Assembly: GCA_913049535.1 (NCBI GenBank)
Contig: CAJWYF010000008.1
Coordinates: 1 to 64,000, forward strand
Length of the DNA stretch: 64,000 nt
DNA from: an uncultured Synechococcus sp.
GTDB lineage: Bacteria; Cyanobacteriota; Cyanobacteriia; PCC-6307; Cyanobiaceae
Reading direction: 5' to 3'
Under the pieces are notes generated by a model. That model had not been told where the DNA came from and did not search any database. It worked only from the letters and a program-made list of their open reading frames with translations. Position numbers and translations under genes: made by a program. Of the stretch, positions 28,627 through 29,598 are shown piece by piece (position 1 is the first letter of the stretch; every line of letters starts with the position of its first letter).

Positions 28627-29091
28627 ATGGCTGACACCCCCCTCTGGCAGCGACTGCTCGGGCTCCTGGCCTACCTGCTGCCCTGGTCTGACGCCCTCGG
28701 CTTTGGGCGGGAGCTCTACGGGCTGTTCCCCTGGGTCTCCTATCTGGCGCTGCCAGCGACACCGGTGCTGCTGTTGCAGCGGGCGATTCCCTTCGGTGGT
28801 TTCCTGCTGTTCCTGGTGCTGTTCCTGGTGGTGGTGCGCAACCCCCAGGTGCCGTACTACCTGCGTTTCAACGTGCTGCAGGCGATCCTGCTCGACATCC
28901 TTCTGGTGGTGTTGTCACTGGCCTTCAACGTGCTGTTGAGCCCCTTGGGCAACAGCTTGATGATCCGCACCTTGAACAACACGGTGTTCATCGGCGCCCT
29001 GGTGCTGATCCTCTACGCCGTGGTGGAGTGCAGCCGCGGCCGGGAACCGGATCTGCCCAGCCTCTCCGAGGCAGTGCGGATGCAGCTCTGA
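28627..29091 (+). CDS. Tic20-family protein
   Basis: Four-TM protein; LLAYLLPWSDALGFGRELYGLFPW, RNPQVPYYLRFNVLQAILLDILL. Confidence 0.85.
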   Translation: MADTPLWQRLLGLLAYLLPWSDALGFGRELYGLFPWVSYLALPATPVLLLQRAIPFGGFLLFLVLFLVVVRNPQVPYYLRFNVLQAILLDILLVVLSLAFNVLLSPLGNSLMIRTLNNTVFIGALVLILYAVVECSRGREPDLPSLSEAVRMQL

Positions 29092-29103
29092 GGCCAAGGC
29101 TTA

Positions 29104-29168
29104 GGGTGAGTGGTTCGACGAGAACGTCGAATTCAGCCTCCGGATCAATCCCTGGTCCGGGTTCACCC
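29104..29168 (+). promoter_or_regulatory. structured rpsF leader (predicted three-way junction)
   Basis: Hand-paired helices: 29104-29109/29163-29168 (GGGTGA/TCACCC), 29114-29120/29125-29131 (TTCGACG-AGAA-CGTCGAA), 29140-29144/29156-29160 (CCGGA/TCCGG). Confidence 0.5.
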
Positions 29169-29178
29169 CACAGGCAGC

Positions 29179-29598
29179 ATGAGCGCAAAGCCCAACTACG
29201 AGACGATGTACATCCTCCGGCCTGACATTGCCGAAGAGGAAATCGAGACCCATGCCAACAAGTACCGGGACCTGGTGGTCGAGTCCGGCGGCGAAGTGAT
29301 CGACAGCCAGCTGCGCGGCAAGCGTCGCCTGGCTTATCTAATCGGGAAGCACCGCGAGGGCGTCTACATCCAGCTGAACTACAGCGGTGACGGCAAACAG
29401 GTGGGGCCTCTGGAGAAGGCCATGCGCCTGAGTGAGGACGTGATCCGCTACCTGACCGTCAAGTACGAAGGCCAGCACAGTTCCTTGGGCCGCAGCACCA
29501 ACCCGATCACCACAGCGGACACCACCGCCCGCCAGGGCCAGCAGGAGCAACAGCCCAAGAAAGAGGAGCAGCCGGCATCCTCAGAAGGCCAGGGCTGA
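29179..29598 (+). CDS. rpsF: 30S ribosomal protein S6
   Basis: [51 protein letters not shown]; start ATG 29179. Confidence 0.95.

Follow-up and report, generated by a model that had tools for sequence, protein, structure and literature searches.

The leader of the gene for ribosomal protein S6 (rpsF) in the DNA examined here, a 64,000-nucleotide stretch of a Synechococcus genome that we call the window, is probably a divergent autoregulatory operator for the S6:S18 heterodimer. We place it in this RNA class because of its layout, its synteny, and changes in its closing stem between lineages, although no covariance model detects it. The original prediction had raised leaders that bind S6 or S6:S18 as a possible class, and layout, conservation, and position all speak for that proposal. 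It had also paired nearly the entire leader by hand into a three-way junction, in which a helix P1 encloses hairpins P2 and P3. All strings and coordinates given for these stems are correct in the sequence (6 pairs for GGGTGA/TCACCC of P1, 7 for TTCGACG/CGTCGAA of P2, and 8 for CCGGATCA/TGGTCCGG of P3), as are the flanking stop codon of the Tic20-like gene and the rpsF start codon, but the closing of the structure by P1 proved unsupported.

Features of the rpsF leader and its surroundings in the window (P1 to P3 as named in the original prediction)
Feature	Positions	Strand	Remarks
Tic20-like gene upstream of rpsF	28627..29091	+	Pfam PF16166 TIC20, E=2e-20; stop 29089-29091
TAGGGT, predicted -10 box (TANNNT)	29102..29107	+	overlaps 5′ arm of P1
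Predicted transcription start	29112..29114	+	inferred from -10 spacing
P2, hairpin UUCGACG-AGAA-CGUCGAA	29114..29131	+	clade-specific, 5′-terminal
Closing stem, 5′ arm GCCU	29136..29139	+	missed by the original prediction; invariant; chosen by RNAalifold
P3, the P2 hairpin of an S6:S18-type layout, CCGGATCA/TGGTCCGG	29140..29160	+	
3′ bulge GUUCACCCCAC, 11 nt	29161..29171	+	CC 29168-29169, two nt before 3′ arm of closing stem
3′ arm of P1, UCACCC	29163..29168	+	inside conserved bulge; pairing with 29104-29109 unsupported
Closing stem, 3′ arm AGGC	29172..29175	+	3 nt ahead of rpsF ATG
rpsF, ribosomal protein S6	29179..29598	+	Pfam PF01250, E=7e-27; ATG at 29179

For comparison, 94 Cyanobiaceae regions upstream of rpsF were gathered by protein search, along with 25 rpsF leaders from other cyanobacteria and a few additional ones. 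Leaders of the window type number 13 (10 of them distinct) and come from an RCC307-like genus, from S. lacustris, and from a third genus; the Synechococcus of the window is close to RCC307 and TMED19. The relatives carry the same gene end upstream of rpsF as the Tic20-like gene of the window. Pairing counts for the helices and the RNAalifold consensus derive from an alignment of the 10 distinct leaders. The window leader itself is modestly more stable than shuffled versions of its sequence (-37.1 versus -29.7 kcal/mol, z -2.2, with 5 of 200 shuffles equally good). A terminator was rejected for lack of a T-run.

Three parts make up the proposed operator: the short stem GCCU/AGGC that closes it, a hairpin, and a 3′ bulge. 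The two arms of the closing stem are complementary and invariant in 10/10 distinct leaders, and in all 10 GCCU directly abuts the CCGGA arm of the hairpin (CCGAA or CCGAG in some) with no 5′ linker. Compensatory changes, which the original prediction had proposed as its check, are present for P2 and P3 and absent for P1. Specifically, P3 is paired in 98.6% of alignment cells, with one compensatory pair and three one-sided pairs. The bulge GUUCACCCCAC is nearly invariant in the 10 relatives even though S6 identity drops to 71%. The closing stem comprises only 4 bp. Because it is invariant within the clade, covariation there lends it no independent support. The best structure of an RNA running from 29112-29115 to 29190 includes this stem with a probability of 0.5-0.7, and its predicted probability falls to 0.03 when 40 coding bases are added; thus the stem is weak alone and would require a protein to persist.

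We also searched for the arrangement itself, defined as a 4-bp stem, a 5-bp hairpin, a bulge of 10-13 nt, CC at offset 2, and no 5′ linker, which fits the form of this clade and not the marine form. All 10 clade leaders match with identical geometry. When the leader of the window was shuffled 5000 times, 20-30 of the products matched too (0.4-0.6%), a figure that is slightly optimistic since the limits on bulge length were widened once the leaders of this clade were known. Across the whole window the arrangement occurs at 0.27 matches per kb.

Among the closest known systems is the RpsF leader, or S6:S18 leader (RF02893; Matelska 2013, Fu 2014, Babina 2015). The E. coli representative matches RF02893 at 110 bits and has an adjacent closing stem and hairpin, together with a 12-nt 3′ bulge, UGAAUAAUCCGU, in which two nucleotides separate the CC from the closing strand. 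The window leader resembles this RNA in residing upstream of rpsF beside the start codon (3 nt to the ATG), in a closing stem that runs straight into the hairpin, and in a bulge of 11 versus 12 nt with CC at the same distance from the closing strand. It differs in the sequence of the stem (GCCU/AGGC versus UUCCUU/AAGGAG) and of the bulge (GUUCACCCCAC versus UGAAUAAUCCGU), in a stem that lacks a strong Shine-Dalgarno sequence, in its extra 5′ hairpin, and in falling below RF02893 detection. Moreover, rpsR lies outside the rpsF operon of the window, although cotranscription is typical of this RNA class and not required for it.

The S18 site of E. coli 16S rRNA has the sequence ACCG. The corresponding site in the window clade is ACCA, and the base after the bulge CC is likewise A in this clade and in canonical cyanobacterial leaders, whereas it is G in E. 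coli; this parallel between rRNA and bulge is suggestive only. In E. coli, S18 touches the bulge cytosines of the leader through K60 and R63, and these cytosines imitate C719/C720 of the 16S rRNA (Babina 2015, PMC4647458); translational repression has been shown there as well (PMC4647458). A CCG bulge has been described as the conserved feature of the S6:S18 leader (PMC10931766). By analogy with E. coli and with other cyanobacterial leaders, whose bulges are of similar length and have CC at an equal offset, the CC in the window bulge is a candidate S18 contact.

Related leaders occur elsewhere in the phylum. Cyanobacteria outside Cyanobiaceae carry UCCUU-GCUUC..GAAGC-N7GUCCAY-AAGGA, in which the hairpin arms covary strongly. 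A strict pattern for this canonical leader, used after an earlier loose pattern search had been unspecific, finds it in 32/370 genomes. The window leader shares with it layout, gene, and phylum, whereas the canonical form has a UCCUU/AAGGA stem and a GUCCAY bulge. Marine picocyanobacteria have UCCG(UC)-GCUCA..UGAGC-N8CCNN-(GU)CGGA, with a bulge of 10-12 nt and CC near offset 2, and the window clade has GCCU-CCGGA..UCCGG-GUUCACCCCAC-AGGC. The closing stems by lineage are UCCUU/AAGGA, UCCG/CGGA, CCGUC/GACGG (L160), CAGAC/GUCUG (L166), and GCCU/AGGC. Within the clade, compensatory changes occur in the hairpin, while the invariant closing stem differs on both strands only between lineages; this stem therefore appears to have been altered on both strands several times with the geometry kept. 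An S6:S18 leader reported from Chlorobi, which we compared with the window leader by description, is also lineage-specific and located before rpsF, and is reported to show no resemblance to rRNA (PMC7247131).

Rfam models, including RF02893, gave no match in the window or in 14 relatives, so that the comparison with the Rfam S6 leader model proposed in the original prediction left the window leader unrecognized. This model detects the leader in 0/194 cyanobacteria and thus is a weak test for the phylum; its miss lowers the chance that the window leader is an RF02893 member more than the chance that it works like an S6:S18 leader. RF02893 appears too narrow, given the many cyanobacteria that carry the canonical motif. 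Among 14 named control genomes it found only one, that of E. coli. Of two covariance models that we constructed, R1 from canonical cyanobacterial leaders and R2 from marine picocyanobacteria, R1 recovers the leader of E. coli in its true position (14.9 bits, E=5e-4) and finds 14 cyanobacterial leaders, some of them in or near the training set. Neither model matches any leader of the window clade, the window leader included, and R1 matches none of the picocyanobacterial forms tested. In the genome of the window, R1 also matched the last part of rpmG, just ahead of rpsR (20.5 bits; L127:1781-1812, minus strand). This candidate second S6:S18 site was rejected: its wobble positions vary freely among 28 cyanobacteria, and the match seems to have come about by chance from L33 codons.

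Of the other Cyanobiaceae leaders, 77 have a recognizable leader box TCCGTCGC, and all 77 carry a TANNNT box exactly 12 nt 5′ of it; two further leaders lacked a recognizable box, and two were left out as divergent. In window-type leaders TANNNT lies 33-37 nt before TCCG in 13/13 cases (17 nt where the 5′ hairpin is missing). Sigma-70 -10 elements are expected to follow the pattern T, A, three variable bases, T; in the 10-leader alignment the T, A, and T columns are invariant and the inner bases vary. Because this box is conserved at a fixed spacing from the leader, we predict a transcription start shortly downstream of it, and rpsF thus appears to have its own promoter. The window box, TAGGGT, agrees with the E. 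coli consensus at only 3/6 positions, the compared leaders show no conserved -35 element upstream of TANNNT, and a promoter scan of the leader region found no promoter. In some genomes the TA of the box forms part of the stop codon of the upstream gene. The leader box went unrecognized in two Cyanobiaceae upstream regions, L165 (G029) and L104 (G289), one seemingly without it and one with a degenerate-looking version. In marine relatives we first suspected a pseudoknot joining the -10 region to the bulge. This idea was dropped because TANNNT stays invariant around variable inner bases, in the manner of a -10 box, and because complementarity fails to persist.

These data bear on the proposal that the three-way junction is the functional fold, with P1 enclosing P2 and P3 and gating the start codon. 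Read-through RNA in which 29092-29111 is present has that structure as its minimum-energy fold, with a pair probability of at least 0.9, and in such RNA P1 is preferred over the closing stem GCCU/AGGC. However, P1 is paired in only 82.8% of alignment cells and shows zero compensatory changes; variation in the 5′ arm opposite an unchanging 3′ arm breaks the helix in several relatives. RNAalifold chooses P2, P3, and the different closing helix and leaves P1 out. Finally, the 5′ arm overlaps the conserved TANNNT box, and to judge from this box transcription apparently begins downstream of 29104. Both outcomes that the original prediction had itself set against its fold, missing compensatory changes and such a start, seem to apply to P1. 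We find the three-way junction unsupported since one strand of P1 appears to be promoter rather than RNA, and we regard it as very unlikely to operate in the mature leader. A promoter -10 box can mimic a helix arm when a leader is folded by hand.

Both structures might still be used if two transcripts carried two mutually exclusive leaders, such that promoter-started mRNA would form the S6:S18 operator and Tic20 read-through RNA would not. In the latter, GGGTGA would pair with CACCC of the bulge and mask the S18 site. If this were true, read-through rpsF mRNA would escape autorepression and the -10 box would double as an anti-operator, but we give this arrangement very little credence.

The 5′ hairpin (P2) is paired in 98% of alignment cells, and two of its pairs show compensatory change. 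It is an element separate from the operator and, given the predicted start, would stand first in the mRNA, where it probably serves as an end protector. One could accordingly argue that the leader is a stabilizing 5′ hairpin accompanied by incidental structure and involves no autoregulation, given that this hairpin covaries and begins 0-3 nt from the predicted start. This explanation is unlikely: the hairpin at 29140-29160 also covaries, and the unpaired bulge is among the best-conserved parts of the leader and persists in L047, of the S. lacustris Tous type, from which P2 is deleted.

Under the S6:S18 operator hypothesis, rpsF would be transcribed from its own promoter to yield an mRNA whose leader comprises the 5′ stem-loop and then the operator, wherein the hairpin stacks on the short stem and is followed by the 11-nt bulge. 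The bulge CC would mimic the S18-binding cytosines beside 16S helix 23a, and S6:S18 present in excess of its rRNA sites would bind there. The bound heterodimer would steady the closing stem just before the ATG and thereby block ribosome entry. That S6:S18 binds and represses in this organism is what we infer from the E. coli system. As the original prediction had noted, rpsR does not follow rpsF; it resides behind rpmG on another contig, in an rpmG-rpsR arrangement, and feedback would therefore match S6 to S18 supply.

This separate location of rpsR, together with a closing stem and bulge unlike the canonical sequences, might instead indicate an S6-type operator by ancestry that now binds another factor, either S6 alone or a different ribosomal protein. 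We judge such a replacement improbable, because the canonical CC bulge is kept in other cyanobacteria, and both CC and its offset are kept here as well. If the leader is indeed an S6:S18 operator, such feedback may extend to abundant picocyanobacteria in which rpsF and rpsR occupy separate operons. The RNA would seem to have swapped its closing stem and bulge sequence with geometry retained, so that the Rfam model misses cyanobacterial leaders, and the lineage variants would offer a natural series for learning which features S18 needs.

Two further observations concern the promoter regions of relatives. The transcription start predicted for marine and freshwater picocyanobacteria is flush with the 5′ arm UCCGUC of the closing stem, and the operator would therefore open at the extreme 5′ end of the mRNA. 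In many marine Synechococcus and Prochlorococcus (L020-L038, L068, L071-L106), an inverted repeat of ACC and GGT separated by about 10 nt surrounds the rpsF -10 box, an arrangement that is not universal.
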